The translations under genes were made by a program, and so were the position numbers. This document shows, one piece after another, positions 14,697-19,722 of a DNA stretch of 64,000 bases. The DNA is taken from assembly GCF_021513175.1 (NCBI RefSeq), contig NZ_CP090953.1, positions 186,001 through 250,000 of the forward strand. The letters are read 5' to 3'. The notes under the pieces are model-generated. The model worked only from the letters and a program-made list of their open reading frames with translations. It searched no databases and was not told the origin of the DNA. Position 1 is the stretch's first letter. Each line of letters starts with the position of its first letter. This DNA is from Sphingomonas sp. S2-65. GTDB taxonomy: Bacteria > Pseudomonadota > Alphaproteobacteria > Sphingomonadales > Sphingomonadaceae.

Positions 14697-14729
14697 CCTC
14701 GGGGCGTTGAGCCGGAATCCCGCTACTTC

Positions 14730-14774
14730 AACCCGCTAGAAGAAGCGGGACCCCGGCTCAAGGCCGGGGTGACG
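14730..14774. repeat. REP-like palindromic element
   Basis: CCCGCT/AGCGGG and CCCCGGC/GCCGGGG stem pairs sit side by side, followed by GTGACGA, between the convergent 2Fe-2S and sufE genes. Related copies occur at 19731, 35291-35517 and 41571. It may also serve as a bidirectional terminator. Confidence 0.7.
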
Positions 14775-14787
14775 ATGAGCGGGCTGA

Positions 14788-15195
14788 TCAGTTCGCGTAG
14801 CGGGCTGCGGTGTCGCGGATCAGGGCGATCATGTTGGGAATGCCCTGCGTCCGGTTCGAACTCAGCTGGTTCTTGAGATCGAAGGGCGCGAGTGCGGCGT
14901 CGACATCGGTGGCCAGGATGTCGGCCGGCGCGCGGTCCTGCACGGTCAGCAGGACAAGCGCGATGATACCCTTGGTGATGGCCGCATTCGAATCCGCCAG
15001 GAAGTGCAGCGTGCCGTCGTCGCGGCGGGTAGGATAGACCCAGACCGAGGCGGAGCACCCACGCACGAGCGTCGCATCGGTCTTCAACGGATCGGGCATC
15101 GGTTCCAGGCCGCGGCCGAGATCGATCAGCAGGCGGTAGCGGTCGTCCGCGTCGAGGAATTCATATTCGTCCTGAAGATCGGCTAGGCTGGTCAT
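14788..15195 (-). CDS. sufE: SufE family sulfur acceptor
   Basis: SufE accepts persulfide sulfur from the cysteine desulfurase SufS and passes it to Fe-S cluster assembly. The active Cys47 sits in VRGCSASVW, the family signature (G-C-x-S-x-V-W). At 135 aa it has the normal size. The C-terminus SSNRTQGIPNMIALIRDTA matches the conserved final helix. No other suf gene is adjacent, so partner genes are elsewhere. Confidence 0.92.
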   Translation of the reverse strand: MTSLADLQDEYEFLDADDRYRLLIDLGRGLEPMPDPLKTDATLVRGCSASVWVYPTRRDDGTLHFLADSNAAITKGIIALVLLTVQDRAPADILATDVDAALAPFDLKNQLSSNRTQGIPNMIALIRDTAARYAN

Positions 15196-15266
15196 GCGGA
15201 GCGCTATAGCGGCGCGGCGTTCGTCGCGTCATCCCCGGCTGGGCAGGATCTGGAAATAAGCCGTGC

Positions 15267-15300
15267 GGTGGCGGGGCTGCCCGGGCCCCGTTGCCGCCAC
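15267..15300 (-). terminator. Possible terminator of the psp operon
   Basis: On the minus strand GTGGCGG and CCGCCAC, plus GGGC/GCCC inside, form an imperfect stem about 30 bases after the last gene of the phage-shock run; no true T-run follows, so the call is weak. Confidence 0.35.
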
Positions 15301-15328
15301 GAAGGACGCAGGCGTGGTGTAGCGGGGT

Positions 15329-15577
15329 TTAGAGGTCGACGCCGGCCGCGATCGCCTCGAGCTTGCGGATCCGCTCCTTGAGATCGGCCATTTCGATGCG
15401 CGATGCTGCCGAAGGCAGGGCGGGCGCGTCGATCTGCGACTGGCTGTGGCGGCCGAGTTCCTGTTGCTTGAGCGAGAGCCAGCCGCGCCAGCCCGACAGC
15501 CCTGCGGTGGTGAGCATGGCCAGGCCGGCAAGGCCCGATACCGCGCAAGTGATGTAGAGTTCGGGGTCGTGGATCAC
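15329..15577 (-). CDS. Last PspB-like small membrane protein of the psp run
   Basis: An 82-residue protein with one hydrophobic segment (about 10-28, AVSGLAGLAMLTTAGLSGW) and a C-terminal charged coiled coil ending RIRKLEAIAAGVDL. This tail is a shortened form of the R-x-x-x-LER-(I/V)-x-(T/A)-(D/A) motif found in the upstream neighbours and in PspB. It is separated from the preceding gene by 15 bases, so it is part of the same transcription unit. Function is unknown; I infer an accessory role in envelope stress. Confidence 0.7.
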   Translation of the reverse strand: MIHDPELYITCAVSGLAGLAMLTTAGLSGWRGWLSLKQQELGRHSQSQIDAPALPSAASRIEMADLKERIRKLEAIAAGVDL

Positions 15578-15592
15578 GTCATGCCTCCCTGG

Positions 15593-15871
15593 TCAGACGT
15601 TGTTCTTGGTACGCAGCGCGTCGATCTCGCGTTCGAGCCGGGTGCTGCTGGTCTCGTTGTCGGTGATGACGCGTTCGAGAACCTGGACGCGCTCCTTGAC
15701 GGCGCGGAGCTCTTCGCGGAGGCGCGCGGCCTCCTGAGCCGCGGCGGGATCCTGGACGCCGCGATAGACGTCCTTGCCATCGCGGTCCTTGTGGATCCCC
15801 AGGCGCGCCTTGAGCACGCTGCCGATGGTGACCACGACGAGGATCGCGACGACCATTTCGAACGGGTTCAT
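15593..15871 (-). CDS. PspB-like small membrane protein
   Basis: A 92-residue protein: one N-terminal membrane segment (about 5-20, EMVVAILVVVTIGSVL), a short linker (KDRDGKDVYRG), then a long coiled coil carrying RVQVLERVITDNE and LEREIDALRTKN. The shared tail motif LER-(I/V)-x-T-D ... EI-(D/E)-x-LR recurs in five proteins of this locus. GGGAG stands 8 bases before ATG 15871. PspB proteins are inner-membrane partners of PspC that relay envelope stress; this is inferred to be a paralogue rather than PspB itself. Confidence 0.75.
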   Translation of the reverse strand: MNPFEMVVAILVVVTIGSVLKARLGIHKDRDGKDVYRGVQDPAAAQEAARLREELRAVKERVQVLERVITDNETSSTRLEREIDALRTKNNV

Positions 15872-15900
15872 CCTCTACACTCCCTCTTGTGCCGGTGCGG

Positions 15901-16026
15901 CTATTTGGTCTGTTGTTGCTGCTGCGCCAAGCGGAGTGCGCGGCGGACGGGTCGGTCCCGGGCTTCGGCGAGGGCGATAGCGCCCCCGCACAGTGCGGTG
16001 AGCACTGCGAAAACTGCAATCATCAT
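15901..16026 (-). CDS. 41-residue membrane peptide in the psp run
   Basis: A short frame from ATG 16026 to TAG 15901 encodes MMIAVFAVLTALCGGAIALA followed by a basic/Gln-rich tail (ARDRPVRRALRLAQQQQQTK). One hydrophobic segment and a positive tail predict a single-pass peptide. AGAGG lies 8 bases upstream and the frame fills the otherwise empty gap between two same-strand genes, which supports it being real. The peptide lacks the coiled coil of its neighbours. Function unknown. Confidence 0.6.
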   Translation of the reverse strand: MMIAVFAVLTALCGGAIALAEARDRPVRRALRLAQQQQQTK

Positions 16027-16038
16027 GGGGTTGATCCT

Positions 16039-16305
16039 CTAGTTGAGCGGCGCGTCGCGCAGCTTCTCGATTTCATCCGCGACGGCGATGCCGCGGTCGG
16101 TGACGATGCGCTCCAGGACACGGACCCGTTGTTCGAGACGCTCGGTCTGGGCGGCGTATTGCGCGGCCTTTTCGGCGACCATCTGCGACTCCAGTTCCAT
16201 CTGGCGCTCCTTGAGCTTGAACCAGGGGCGGAGGAACACGCCGCCGAAGATGGCGAGCAGCCCGCAGCTGATGCCGAGGATGGGGATGAGAAGGGGGCTG
16301 ATCAT
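16039..16305 (-). CDS. PspB-like small membrane protein
   Basis: An 88-residue protein with a long N-terminal hydrophobic stretch (about 2-26, LLIPILGISCGLLAIFGGVFL), a charged coiled coil (KLKERQMELESQMVAEKAA) and the locus motif RVRVLERIVTDRGIAV then EIEKLRD. The architecture is the same as PspB: one membrane helix then a cytoplasmic leucine-rich coil. It is 13 bases from its upstream neighbour. I treat it as a PspB paralogue by architecture; sequence identity to PspB is low. Confidence 0.75.
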   Translation of the reverse strand: MISPLLIPILGISCGLLAIFGGVFLRPWFKLKERQMELESQMVAEKAAQYAAQTERLEQRVRVLERIVTDRGIAVADEIEKLRDAPLN

Positions 16306-16318
16306 CGAATGCTTCCTC

Positions 16319-16651
16319 TCAGTTGGTGTGCGTGCCGCGCAGCGACTCGATCTCGCGGTCGAGGCTCACGGCGCCGTCGGTGACGATGCGCTCGACATTG
16401 GCGAGGCGGTCCTTGACCGAGCCGAGCTCGGCGCGGAGCTGGGCGGTCTCCTGGCTGAGCAGGCGGATGCGCTCCATCGCCTCGTCGTCGCGCTTCGGGT
16501 AGAGCGCCTTGCCCCAGCTGTTTTCCAGCGGGTAGCCGTTCTTGATGCGAAGCCAGGTGGTGAGGACCCAGCCGGCCATCGTCACCGAGACGATGATGGC
16601 GATCAGCGGGAAGATGCCCTGGACGAACATCAGTTTGTCGGCACTGTTCAT
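16319..16651 (-). CDS. PspB-like small membrane protein
   Basis: A 110-residue protein with one membrane segment (about 11-32), then LRIKNGYPLENSWGKALYP, a long coiled coil (ERIRLLSQETAQLRAELGSV) and the shared tail RLANVERIVTDGAVSLDREI. The WLRIKNGYPLE linker closely matches WIRARHGYPVE in the next gene upstream (16664-16954), so the two are recent paralogues. Spacing to the neighbours is only 12-13 bases. Function is not established; envelope-stress signalling is inferred from location. Confidence 0.78.
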   Translation of the reverse strand: MNSADKLMFVQGIFPLIAIIVSVTMAGWVLTTWLRIKNGYPLENSWGKALYPKRDDEAMERIRLLSQETAQLRAELGSVKDRLANVERIVTDGAVSLDREIESLRGTHTN

Positions 16652-16663
16652 GGTCTCAACTCC

Positions 16664-16954
16664 TTAGCGCAGTGCGTCGATTTCGCGGGCGGTGCGCTCG
16701 GCGGGATCGGTGGCGATCCGTTCGAGCACGGCGATGCGGTCCTCGAGGCGCGAGATCTGGCCGGTGAGGCGTGCGTTCTCGCTCGAGAGCAGTTCGATCT
16801 TCCGCTCGGCGGTGGGGTCGCCCTTGTGGCTCACCCCGTTCCACTCGCTCTCCACCGGGTAGCCGTGCCTGGCGCGGATCCAGTTGTTGAAGATCATTCC
16901 GAAGGTCGAGATCGCGATGATGGCGATGACGAAGCCTGGTCCACTCCAGCTCAT
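16664..16954 (-). CDS. PspB-like small membrane protein
   Basis: A 96-residue protein: membrane segment at about 5-24 (GPGFVIAIIAISTFGMIF), linker WIRARHGYPVESEW, coiled coil (ERKIELLSSENARLTGQISR) and the shared tail RIAVLERIATDPAERTAREI. It is the closest relative of the neighbouring 16319-16651 product. It lies 38 bases after pspC. Confidence 0.78.
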   Translation of the reverse strand: MSWSGPGFVIAIIAISTFGMIFNNWIRARHGYPVESEWNGVSHKGDPTAERKIELLSSENARLTGQISRLEDRIAVLERIATDPAERTAREIDALR

Positions 16955-16992
16955 GATGTTTTCCCTTCCTGTTTGACGGCCTGGCGATTGGC

Positions 16993-17367
16993 TCAGCGCA
17001 GGCTGTCGATCTCGTCCGCCAGGCGCGTGTTGCGGCTGGTATAGTACATCTCGATGTCGGCGAGGCGGCGGTCGATGTCGCGGAACTTCGAGCGGACCTC
17101 GGCGGTGGAGCGGCTCGGGTTCGAGCGCACGCCCTGCCAGAACTTGGCTTCCTCAGGGCCCTGATAGAGCCCCGCGGGCCTGTTCGGCGCCATCCACGCG
17201 ATCAGCAGATAGGCGAAGATGTTCATCGGGAAGATCGCGAAGCTGAGCATCACGAAGCCGACGCGGAGCCAGATGGCATCGATGCCGGTATATTCCGCCA
17301 GGCCCGAGCATACGCCCAGCCACTTGCTGTTCTGCTTGTCGAGATAGAATTTGGTACGAGCGGACAT
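16993..17367 (-). CDS. pspC: Phage-shock protein C with an added PspB-like tail
   Basis: The first 60 residues are a PspC domain: FYLDKQNSKWLGVCSGLAEY, TGIDAIWLRVGFVMLSFAIF and a second hydrophobic stretch NIFAYLLIAWMAP. PspC is an inner-membrane sensor that recruits PspA or regulates the response. The C-terminal 45 residues (SKFRDIDRRLADIEMYYTSR, then RLADEIDSLR) are a short coiled coil with the same final EIDSLR seen in the PspB-like proteins downstream, so this PspC carries its own version of the shared tail. Total 124 aa. Confidence 0.9.
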   Translation of the reverse strand: MSARTKFYLDKQNSKWLGVCSGLAEYTGIDAIWLRVGFVMLSFAIFPMNIFAYLLIAWMAPNRPAGLYQGPEEAKFWQGVRSNPSRSTAEVRSKFRDIDRRLADIEMYYTSRNTRLADEIDSLR

Positions 17368-17368
17368 C

Positions 17369-17641
17369 TTAGTTCCTCCTCGAATGATCGTACGGGCTCG
17401 GTTCGCGATGCGCGGACAGCGGCCGGAAATCGGGATTGTCGGCGGCGATGATGCGTTCGACGGTGAGCAGGCGTTCCTCGAGCTGCTTGGCGGTGTAGAA
17501 GAGCTCGTCGAGCAGCTTCTCGTCCTCGCCGGTGATCGTGGCCGACTGCTTCCACTTGGTGATGTAGTGCATGATCACCCAGGGGAGCCCGATGAAGAGC
17601 ATCCCCACGATGACGATGGGCAGGAGCACTTCGTCCAACAT
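17369..17641 (-). CDS. pspB: Phage-shock protein B
   Basis: A 90-residue protein with an N-terminal membrane helix (about 4-24, EVLLPIVIVGMLFIGLPWVI), the HYITKWKQ segment typical of PspB, and a coiled coil LLDELFYTAKQLEERLLTVE followed by RIIAAD. It lies 3 bases downstream of pspA and one base upstream of pspC, the canonical pspABC order. PspB works with PspC at the inner membrane to release PspA from PspF. Confidence 0.9.
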   Translation of the reverse strand: MLDEVLLPIVIVGMLFIGLPWVIMHYITKWKQSATITGEDEKLLDELFYTAKQLEERLLTVERIIAADNPDFRPLSAHREPSPYDHSRRN

Positions 17642-17644
17642 GAC

Positions 17645-18313
17645 TTAGGCTCCCTTGTTCAGCCGCGCCTTGAGCGCTTCGAGTTCGGCGTCGACCTTTT
17701 CGGACGAACGCAGCTCGGCGATCTCTTCCTCCAGCGTCTTTGGCTGGCCGCCGAAGCCCATCGCATCGGCGCGGCCTTCGGCCATGTCGACCCGGCGCTC
17801 CAGGACGTCGAAGCGCGAGAAGGCGTCCTGCATCTTCGAGCCGTTGGTCATCTCGCGCAGGCGGAAGCGGTTGTTGGCGCTTTCCAGGCGGGCGACGATC
17901 GAGTTCTGGCGGGTGCGGGCCTCGCGCAGCTTGTTCTGCAGCTTGTTGATGTCCTCTTCGGACGCCTTGAGCGCGTCGTCGAGCACTGCGATTTCGGCTG
18001 CCAGCTGCTCGCACATGTCCTTGGCCTTCTGCCGCTCGACCAGAGCTGCCTTGGCGAGGTCCTCGCGGCCCTTGCTCAGTGCCAGCTCGGCCTTCTCGGT
18101 CCAGCTCTCCTGGAGCTTTTCGAGCTTGGCGATGTGGCGGCGCATTTCCTTCTGGTCGGCGATGGTGCGGGCGGCGGAGGCGCGAACCTCAACCAGCGTT
18201 TCCTCCATCTCGAGGATGATCATGCGGATCATCTTGGCCGGGTCCTCGGCCTTGTCGAGAAGGTCGGTGACGTTGGCGGCGATGATGTCGCGGGTTCGCG
18301 AAAAGATACCCAT
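17645..18313 (-). CDS. pspA: Phage-shock protein A
   Basis: PspA is an ESCRT-III-like coiled-coil protein that coats damaged membrane and inhibits PspF. The N-terminal MGIFSRTRDIIAANV amphipathic helix and the region LLDKAEDPAKMIRMIILEME are family hallmarks, followed by about 180 residues of coiled coil. I use ATG 18313 because AAGGAG is 7 bases upstream; ATG 18319 (MY-MGIF) is too close to it. Length 222 aa is normal. The 5' leader contains two strong hairpins and a short upstream ORF. Confidence 0.96.
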   Translation of the reverse strand: MGIFSRTRDIIAANVTDLLDKAEDPAKMIRMIILEMEETLVEVRASAARTIADQKEMRRHIAKLEKLQESWTEKAELALSKGREDLAKAALVERQKAKDMCEQLAAEIAVLDDALKASEEDINKLQNKLREARTRQNSIVARLESANNRFRLREMTNGSKMQDAFSRFDVLERRVDMAEGRADAMGFGGQPKTLEEEIAELRSSEKVDAELEALKARLNKGA

Positions 18314-18335
18314 GTACATACTCCTTGGTTTGAGA

Positions 18336-18398
18336 CCGCCGGGAGGCTCTAGGGGCGTCCTCCCGGCGGGGATCCCGCTCGCCGGGGCATTGGCGAGC
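18336..18398 (-). promoter_or_regulatory. Two hairpins in the pspA leader
   Basis: CCGCCGGGAGG (18336-18346) and CCTCCCGGCGG (18359-18369) form a perfect 11-bp stem; GCTCGCC (18377-18383) and GGCGAGC (18392-18398) form a perfect 7-bp stem. Both lie between the 35-codon leader ORF and the pspA Shine-Dalgarno. No T-run follows, so they look more like stability or processing structures than terminators. Confidence 0.6.
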
Positions 18399-18414
18399 AG
18401 GGAGGCTTTGTCCG

Positions 18415-18522
18415 TCAGGCGATCGCGGGGCCGACCGCACCAGCCATCAGCACGACGCTGGCGAGAAGGGCGATGGTGACTGCGAAGAAGGCGCTGCGGA
18501 CGTTGTTGGCTTGGTAGGTCAT
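18415..18522 (-). CDS. 35-residue hydrophobic peptide at the head of the psp operon
   Basis: ATG 18522 to TGA 18415 encodes MTYQANNVRSAFFAVTIALL and then ASVVLMAGAVGPAIA, a single hydrophobic helix with a polar N-terminus. GGGA lies about 9 bases upstream. It is the first open frame after the sigma-54 promoter at 18579-18593, about 45 bases from the predicted start of transcription. It could be a real small membrane protein or a leader peptide controlling pspA. I know no named family. Confidence 0.6.
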   Translation of the reverse strand: MTYQANNVRSAFFAVTIALLASVVLMAGAVGPAIA

Positions 18523-18578
18523 TGTCTCGTTCCCTGAACCTTGTGTGTTTGCCCGTTGCCGGGCTTGCCAATACACCA

Positions 18579-18593
18579 GCAGGAAGCGTGCCA
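18579..18593 (-). promoter_or_regulatory. Sigma-54 promoter of the psp operon
   Basis: Minus strand TGGCACG (18593-18587), four bases, CTGC (18582-18579) matches the -24/-12 consensus TGGCACG-N4-TTGC with one change. It lies between divergent pspF and the psp operon, the standard position for PspF-dependent control. Confidence 0.8.
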
Positions 18594-18693
18594 GTTTGCA
18601 AAAGCCGCAGAAATCCGCGCTTTTCCGCCGTTGCAGGGTGCGATCACAAGTTTGCAGTTGCCAAGGGTTGGGAAATCACCCCAATCTTTCGGT

Positions 18694-19722
18694 ATGGAGC
18701 GAACAACGCAGGTAATCGGGCAGTCGGGCGCCTTTCTCGACGCCCTCGAACAGGCCAGTCGCGCCGCCGCGCTGGACCGCCCGGTGCTGGTGATCGGCGA
18801 ACGCGGCACCGGCAAGGAGCTGGTCGCCGAGCGCCTCCACCGGCTGAGCCCGCGCTGGGATCAGCCGCTGGTGGTGATGAACTGCGCGGCGTTGCCCGAG
18901 ACACTGATCGAGGCCGAGCTGTTCGGGCACGAGGCGGGCGCGTTCACTGGGGCCACAAAGACGCGCGCGGGCAGGTTCGAGGAAGCCGATGGCGGCACGC
19001 TGTTCCTCGACGAACTTGGAACCCTGTCAAAGGCGGCGCAAGACCGGCTGCTGCGCGCGGTCGAATATGGCGAAATCACTCGGATCGGGTCGTCGCGGGC
19101 GCTACGCGTCGACGTGCGTATCGTCGCGGCGACCAACGAGCATCTGCCGGACCGAGTGGAGCAGGGCACGTTCCGGGCCGACTTGCTCGACCGGCTGAGC
19201 TTCGAAGTGGTGACGCTGCCGCCGCTGCGGGCCCGGCGCGGGGACATCGAAGTGCTTGCCGAGTTTTTCGGGCGCCGGATGGCGGCGGAGATCGGGTGGA
19301 CGGATTGGCCGGGATGGGGACCCACCGCGCTGGACACGCTGCTTCACCATGAATGGCCCGGTAATGTCCGCGAGCTGCGCAACGTCGTCGAGCGGGCGGT
19401 GTATCGCTGGAATCGCGAAGGGCCGATCGACTATATCGAAGTCGATCCTTTCGCGTCGCCATATCGCCCGCGGCCGATGTCACCGCCTCCCGCCACACCG
19501 GTGCCGCCGGTCGCTCCCGTGCCGGTAGCCGAGGGCGCCTCGCCCAGCGAAGTCGGAGGCGACTTCAAGACGCGCGTCGCCGCTTTCGAGCGGCAGCTGC
19601 TCACGCGCTCGCTGGCCGAGCACCGCTTCAACCAGCGTTCGACAGCGGAGGCGCTGGGGCTGAGTTATGATCAGCTCCGCCATGCGCTGAAACGGCACGA
19701 TCTGCTGGGGGCCAGCGGCTGA
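18694..19722 (+). CDS. pspF: Psp operon transcriptional activator PspF
   Basis: PspF is a sigma-54-dependent AAA+ activator that lacks a receiver domain and is held off by PspA. Visible are Walker A GERGTGKE (about residue 36), the sigma-54 contact loop GAFTGA, Walker B GGTLFLDELG, the NVRELRNVVERAVYR sensor II region and a C-terminal Fis-type helix-turn-helix (RSTAEALGLSYDQLRHALKR). A Pro-rich linker (SPPPATPVPPVAPVPVA) joins AAA+ and DNA-binding domains. ATG 18694 is used; in-frame codons upstream run through the psp promoter region and are unlikely to be coding. Length 342 aa. Divergent from pspA. Confidence 0.94.
   Translation: MERTTQVIGQSGAFLDALEQASRAAALDRPVLVIGERGTGKELVAERLHRLSPRWDQPLVVMNCAALPETLIEAELFGHEAGAFTGATKTRAGRFEEADGGTLFLDELGTLSKAAQDRLLRAVEYGEITRIGSSRALRVDVRIVAATNEHLPDRVEQGTFRADLLDRLSFEVVTLPPLRARRGDIEVLAEFFGRRMAAEIGWTDWPGWGPTALDTLLHHEWPGNVRELRNVVERAVYRWNREGPIDYIEVDPFASPYRPRPMSPPPATPVPPVAPVPVAEGASPSEVGGDFKTRVAAFERQLLTRSLAEHRFNQRSTAEALGLSYDQLRHALKRHDLLGASG

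Follow-up and report, generated by a model that had tools for sequence, protein, structure and literature searches.

A family-wide array of predicted PspB/PspC-tail membrane proteins in the phage-shock operon of sphingomonads

The phage shock protein (psp) operon guards the inner membrane, and its product PspA is a bacterial relative of ESCRT-III. We analysed the psp operon in a 64,000-nucleotide stretch of the Sphingomonas sp. S2-65 genome (contig NZ_CP090953.1, positions 186,001 to 250,000; hereafter the window). Downstream of pspA, positions 15329-17641 hold eight minus-strand genes: pspB, pspC and six genes referred to here as G3 to G8. The predicted C-terminal helix of G3, G4, G5 and G7 is common to these proteins and PspC and, more weakly, to PspB. 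The genes recur in related genomes in nearly fixed order, share a conserved tail and keep separate identities. From its sequence, the array looks like a lineage-specific enlargement of the known psp system, and it may act as a sensor or scaffold.

Gene layout and family assignment

Beyond pspB and pspC, the window encodes five single-pass proteins (G3, G4, G5, G7, G8) and one 41-amino-acid membrane peptide (G6). The intergenic gaps from pspA through G8 are 1 to 38 bases:

17645..18313, minus strand: pspA (TIGR02977, 280.7 bits, cut-off 242.95)
17369..17641, minus strand: pspB (PF06667, 86.4 bits, cut-off 25.6; TIGR02976, 74.3 bits, cut-off 51.7)
16993..17367, minus strand: pspC (TIGR02978, 106.9 bits, cut-off 104)
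16664..16954, minus strand: G3, single-pass, W-I-R-x-R-x-GYP linker, shared tail (open reading frame (ORF), family profile; hhalign with G4)
16319..16651, minus strand: G4, single-pass, W-L-R-x-K-x-GYP linker, shared tail (sub-cut-off TIGR02978 match; AlphaFold2)
16039..16305, minus strand: G5, PspB-like, single-pass, shared tail (hhalign to PspB; sub-cut-off PF06667; AlphaFold2)
15901..16026, minus strand: G6, 41-amino-acid membrane peptide without the tail (ORF, hydropathy; own profile across loci)
15593..15871, minus strand: G7, single-pass, shared tail (sub-cut-off TIGR02978 match; hhalign to G3)
15329..15577, minus strand: G8, single-pass, GTG start, ending RIEMADLKERIRKLEAIAAGVDL (present in 78/81 loci; weak tail link)

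All these genes are open and co-oriented on the minus strand, as a preliminary description of the stretch had it. That description correctly listed pspB, pspC and the 41-residue peptide. It counted seven genes with four further single-pass proteins and so left one out.

One NCBIfam model each recognises PspA (TIGR02977), PspB (TIGR02976) and PspC (TIGR02978) above its cut-off. The operon combines pspA, pspB and pspC with a divergent pspF and a sigma-54 promoter, the latter by consensus only. The divergent pspF and the order pspA-pspB-pspC are as in pspF-pspABCDE of Escherichia coli K-12, whose operon is likewise reported to be under sigma-54 control (PMC3068692). However, E. coli K-12 has one PspB and one PspC followed by PspD and PspE, whereas in the window pspC is followed by the five single-pass proteins and the peptide. 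Among the ten proteins searched, none matched the PspE family, and no PspD family came up at E values of 10 or less.

No Pfam or NCBIfam cut-off is passed by G3, G4, G5, G7 or G8, and only pspB reaches a PspB-family cut-off (PF06667 / TIGR02976) in the operon. Below the cut-offs, G5 scores 16.7 bits with PF06667 (E 0.008) and 14.4 bits with TIGR02976; with the latter, G3 scores 10.4 and G7 8.0 bits (cut-off 51.7). G4 and G8 match neither model. TIGR02978 is matched below its cut-off by G4 (positions 51-121, E 1.8e-4), G7 (positions 48-119, E 9.4e-5) and G5 (E 0.009), in all three cases in the second half of the model only. The PspC domain PF04024 has no match in G3, G4, G5, G7 or G8, and G8 matched no Psp family in the Pfam and NCBIfam searches. 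The earlier label 'PspB-like' suits G5 best, which aligns with PspB over nearly its full length (see below). For G4 and G7 the top-scoring model is that of PspC, so we prefer the name 'PspB/PspC-tail proteins'.

Hydropathy predicts one N-terminal transmembrane helix in G3, G4, G5, G7 and G8. Flanking charges would put the C-terminal part on the cytoplasmic side. The helical character of the remainder is predicted for G4 and G5: AlphaFold2 models helices 3-38 and 55-109 joined by a linker in G4 (mean predicted local distance difference test score (pLDDT) 77, predicted template modelling score (pTM) 0.31) and a single long helix 6-84 in G5 (mean pLDDT 73, pTM 0.31). Both models are single chains and uninformative on partners. 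PDB sequence searches with PspC and PspB as queries gave no relative; one returned nothing, the other seven hits (best E 0.23) that we attribute to chance.

A predicted C-terminal helix shared by four array proteins with PspC and, more weakly, PspB

The preliminary description ascribed two tail motifs to five products. EI-(D/E)-x-LR does occur literally in PspC, G3, G4, G5 and G7; only G3, G5 and G7 contain LER-(I/V)-x-T-D to the letter, the corresponding segment being VERIVTD in G4 and IEMYYTS in PspC. The W-(I/L)-R-x-(R/K)-x-GYP linker, ascribed to two products, occurs literally in both G3 and G4. In G8 the T-D and EI-x-x-LR part is missing, and just R-I-x-x-L-E is left.

We compared the proteins by hhalign, with family profiles drawing on as many as 81 loci (described below). 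G members were kept in the alignments at 60 bits or more and 20 bits above the second G family, and identical rows were dropped. This left 76 rows for G3, 80 for G4, 70 for G5, 55 for G7 and 77 for G8, with loss of divergent copies, most of all in G7. All pairs among the four G tails matched (G3-G4 99.8% over 89 columns, G3-G7 99.2%, G4-G7 98.8%, G3-G5 98.5%, G5-G7 98.1%, G4-G5 97.1%). PspB aligns with G5 over residues 1-71, nearly its full length (94.7%), and gives 84.6% with G3, 41% with G7, 38% with G4 and 1.3% with G8. Residues 88-124 of PspC align with residues 69-105 of G4 (94.5%), followed by G3 (86%), G7 (84%) and G5 (75%). The direct PspB-PspC comparison gives 42%. G8 reaches 72-73% with G5 and G7, 28% with G3 and less than 3% with G4, PspB and PspC.

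As a control, tail columns were permuted only within the same heptad phase (60 permutations per pair). The real score was reached by 0/60 permutations for all 6 pairs among G3, G4, G5 and G7 and for PspC with each of the four; for PspB with G3, G4, G5 and G7 the counts were 0, 1, 0 and 0 of 60. G8 gave 0/60 with each of the same four, by small margins. PspB-G8 gave 1/60, and homology to PspB is not convincing for G8. The direct PspB-PspC (7/60) and G8-PspC (13/60) comparisons were indistinguishable from the control. Since the G pairs beat the control and PspB-PspC does not, the PspB and PspC tails are connected in this comparison via the G tails and not directly.

A joint profile of G3, G4, G5 and G7, run against the whole 3.8 Mb genome, found the four genes and PspC (E 4.2e-4) and nothing else up to E 10. 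Among the E. coli operon proteins it scored PspB at 19.6 bits, PspC at 7.1, PspE at 1.4, PspD at -1.6 and PspA at -4.3. E. coli PspC already bears such a tail, although its match is weak. Taken together, the NCBIfam matches, hhalign, the permutation control and the genome and E. coli searches uphold the relation of the tails to PspB that had been proposed, and show one to PspC as well.

Generic coiled-coil resemblance was considered and judged unlikely. The heptad-phase control and the whole-genome background speak against it, a query with PspC tails (see Discussion) being the weaker background.

Distribution across genomes

We examined 80 named loci, nearly all named as sphingomonads, which are the best 80 of 358 confirmed places, so that counts from them lean towards close relatives; with the window they make 81 loci, chosen by G4 match. 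PspA, PspB and PspC lie beside the array in 81/81. Gene order is nearly fixed, most commonly pspA-pspB-pspC-G3-G4-G5-(G6)-G7-G8-SufE, and arrays hold 2 to 6 genes of the G3/G4/G5/G7 type. G6 is present by best profile match in 33/81 loci, mostly located between G5 and G7, and its C-terminal end in the family alignment is a conserved AExRDRPvRRA.

Samples of 147 genomes of the order and 149 of the family were drawn evenly. In the order sample, the G4 query, which also retrieves close paralogs, matched 60/64 family members and 0/83 genomes of other families. In the family sample, the G3/G4/G5/G7 profile matched 140/149 genomes, of which 115 had at least three matches. Zero to eight matches were found in 9, 11, 14, 36, 37, 25, 12, 4 and 1 genomes, respectively, counts in which PspC tails may be included, as they are in the window. 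The conservation in related genomes expected from the preliminary description is thus borne out. A second PF06667 place close to pspB was read by eye at E<=0.001 in 8/64 family genomes, exceeding the cut-off in 2.

Other families of the order (the 83 genomes of the same draw) have one or two matches to the four-gene profile in 56/83 genomes (10/16 + 46/67). In 13 of the 56, all from one family, a copy begins 0.67-0.77 kb past the PspB match; the remaining 43 carry it on a different contig or at a distance of tens of kb or more from PspB (both read by eye; many are drafts). The products of these single genes have one membrane helix and, after it, a tail resembling LEERVRVLERIxTDxxxxLxxEIxxL. 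Ten order loci (two cut by contig ends) and one of another order were read directly, and no psp genes were found nearby.

Among individual loci, the operon at L157 (genome G015) holds pspA, pspB, pspC, an additional PspC-like gene and a single tail gene, and it is a possible intermediate stage. Single same-tail genes with no psp genes nearby stand at L156, L158, L159, L160, L161 and L162, in other families of the order. The tail gene directly follows what we take to be an rpoD-like gene at L156 and lies ~1.7 kb after one at L161; at L158 and L159 it precedes similar, presumably GAF-like, genes. One single tail gene (genome G031) scores 21.1 bits with Pfam PspB, below the cut-off.

In a class-wide sample 11/289 genomes match, 4 of them from this family. 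One of the seven non-family matches, L119, is an ordinary pspABC operon in which the PspC tail gives the match. A profile of the single-copy genes with G5 and G7 matched 7/289 class genomes, 5 from this family. Where database matches are named, they are mostly 'hypothetical protein', and a few are phage shock protein B or unrelated (best 120 of ~8000 and ~7100). In two database proteins, each from one contig, adjoining array members seem fused: a G3-like tail with G4-like sequence (P0001) and G4-like with G5-like sequence (P0002). These may be real fusions or errors.

Paralog history and constraint

A tree of 84 proteins from 20 of the 81 loci (101 columns, group labels from best profile matches) shows G4 and G5 each as one clade (Shimodaira-Hasegawa-like approximate likelihood ratio test (SH-aLRT) 99 each) and G7 as one group (74). 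G3 is not one clade, and many forks are open. Paralog labels change 4 times on the tree versus a shuffled mean of 47.3. Given this grouping by paralog, the duplications seem to predate the divergence of the sampled loci. Each paralog also has its own fixed tail residues, and the paralogs look old and distinct.

The preliminary description proposed duplication with tail exchange. Of 564 genes (10 with uncallable head), the head and tail profiles name the same family in 547/554 with both parts callable, an agreement that is partly by construction, because most of these genes had themselves gone into the profiles. Six of the seven exceptions are one G5-head/G7-tail gene (L063, L081, L085, L090, L096, L105), which sits between G5 and G7 in its six loci, a pattern that recombination between neighbours would give. 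The seventh, L052, is a marginal call (head 8.1 versus 7.4 bits). General tail exchange is unsupported apart from this one locus group: exchange can happen, yet with one clear exception among 554 genes it does not explain the array.

In pairwise comparisons with three relatives, the ratio of nonsynonymous to synonymous substitution rates (dN/dS) ranges from 0.04 to 0.55 across the ten genes pspA through SufE. Constraint on G5 (0.04-0.10) is much like that on PspA (0.06-0.12). In G3, G4, G5, G7 and G8 the tail is better conserved than the head (0.72-0.88 versus 0.48-0.64), and the same holds for PspC.

Regulatory region and neighbouring genes

Four further features flank the array:

18694..19722, plus strand: pspF, divergent sigma-54 activator (ORF with GAFTGA motif)
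18578..18593, minus strand: sigma-54 -24/-12-like site TGGCACGCTTCCTGCT upstream of pspA (consensus match only)
18415..18522, minus strand: 35-amino-acid hydrophobic leader ORF between the promoter-like site and pspA (hydrophobicity, recurrence across loci)
14788..15195, minus strand: SufE-like gene, conserved downstream neighbour (found in 74/81 loci)

The SufE-like name is presumptive. We take the GAFTGA motif to mark the pspF product as an activator, and we chose the ATG at 18694 as its start; used as a profile, the longer ORF has a counterpart near pspA in several related loci. The first base of the sigma-54-like site lies 280 bases ahead of pspA. On a scale with a maximum of 15.5, based on what we take to be the -24/-12 consensus, the best upstream site has a mean of 14.3 over 80 loci versus 11.2 in shuffled sequence, and scores at least 14 in 69/80 (counted from a listing). 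A scan of positions 14700-18760 detected no sigma-70-like promoter and 3 terminator-like hits, no more than shuffles.

A hydrophobic ORF of 30-85 amino acids lies between the sigma-54-like site and pspA in 72/80 loci (counted without a shuffled control), and these small ORFs often contain AVGPA. The leader ORF of the window may correspond to ZMO1062 of Zymomonas. By its numbering ZMO1062 adjoins pspA. It is called pspD, and its expression is reported to increase in xylose medium together with that of pspA, pspB and pspC (PMC8645129); a published list of temperature-responsive genes includes both ZMO1062 and pspA (PMC8237431). Ethanol, too, is reported to raise pspA, pspB and pspC in Zymomonas mobilis (PMC3495753).

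Discussion

Ravi et al. 2024 report PspB duplicates in psp operons (example AOL22920.1) and a divergent PspB-like end on PspC (PMC11237479), and both are features of the operon described here. PspB duplication and a PspB-like PspC end are thus already known, and the sphingomonad array extends a known kind. The passages of that paper used here give no copy number, paralog list, lineage or account of a sphingomonad array, and besides this remark we found no literature on the array in sphingomonads in the limited library searched. In the order's other families, the single tail genes encode the same helix and tail type; however, they occur in one or two copies and mostly away from the psp operon.

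Because anchors with the same tail share one operon, the array would most simply be an enlarged docking or sensing layer for PspA. A PspB/PspC-type cytoplasmic helix would have been multiplied onto several different single-pass heads, in a psp operon under a sigma-54-like promoter. The G proteins would span the inner membrane and expose the C-terminus to the cytoplasm, where their tails would pair with one another and with those of PspB and PspC. The tails would then be extra docking sites that draw PspA off PspF under stress and retain it at the membrane, while the differing transmembrane and linker parts would tune when, or to what, each anchor responds. In Yersinia, the C-terminal cytoplasmic domain of PspC is reported to bind PspA in the on state, releasing PspF (PMC5596341), and a leucine-zipper motif of E. 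coli PspC is reported as required for interaction with PspA (PMC3068692). Also in favour are the tail relation itself, the stronger conservation of tails than of heads, the paralog-specific tail residues, the well-supported G4 and G5 clades, the low dN/dS values and the failure to detect a sigma-70-like promoter in the operon. We give an even chance to the view that differently headed anchors present PspB/PspC-type tails to PspA and to each other.

Several observations weigh against this view. The PspC zipper has been assigned to a portion thought to be periplasmic, two topologies being considered possible (PMC3068692), and our literature search found no interaction, expression or mutant data on the G proteins. 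The reverse query of the whole genome with 26 PspC tails returned PspC, then G4 (E 0.006), a place outside the operon (E 0.37) and G3 (E 1.7), and did not retrieve G5 or G7. Single G families reach 51% at most with E. coli PspB by hhalign (G5 51%, G7 47%, G3 26%, G8 12%, G4 8%) and no more than 7.8% with E. coli PspC. The tail profile is imperfectly specific, since two matches of the class sample (L117, L120) lie in long proteins resembling generic coiled coils. Nine of the 149 family genomes have no match to the four-gene profile, and copy number is variable. G4 and G7 are the least constrained G genes, only moderately so (dN/dS 0.24-0.55), and the PspB tail is no more conserved than its head (0.70 versus 0.69).

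The same tails could also form a mixed-subunit platform for the ESCRT-III-like PspA, in which combinations of anchors, rather than one PspBC pair, set where and when PspA polymerises; this we think rather unlikely. Alternatively, the extra proteins might act independently of PspA, entering membrane complexes or sealing leaks directly, in the way that PspB and PspC counter mislocalised secretins, with the tail only holding the proteins together. Heads do vary more than tails, and in Yersinia PspB and PspC alone are reported to prevent secretin toxicity, with PspA dispensable (PMC5596341). However, the shared part is the PspC end tied by published work to PspA binding (PMC5596341, PMC3068692), and pspA, pspB and pspC adjoin every array, albeit in loci chosen by G4 match; we regard such effectors as unlikely.

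A history of dosage or neutral expansion, with old tandem duplicates kept mainly as interchangeable copies whose gain or loss has little effect, would fit the range of 0 to 8 matches per family genome and of 2 to 6 genes per array. It seems improbable given that orthologs keep paralog-specific fixed residues, that gene order is nearly fixed and that dN/dS is below 1. Much the same low probability attaches to negative regulation, in which competition of the tails with PspC for PspA, or their binding to PspC, would hold the response in the off state or reset it. The PspB-like character of G5 agrees with this, as does the title of Flores-Kim and Darwin 2016 in the reference list of PMC5596341, but nothing in the sequence separates activating from silencing tails.

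The passages of the work cited here on PspA recruitment to damaged membrane deal with one PspB and one PspC. With six or seven tails in one operon (PspB, PspC, G3, G4, G5, G7 and perhaps G8), sphingomonads offer a natural set of variants, and a comparison of these tails can reveal the residues responsible for PspA binding and those that determine the choice of partner. The array also gives context to genes mostly listed as 'hypothetical protein'. Overall, the series from a single unlinked gene to a single gene in the operon to the array, if it ran in that direction, would be a tractable case of the enlargement of a signalling complex.

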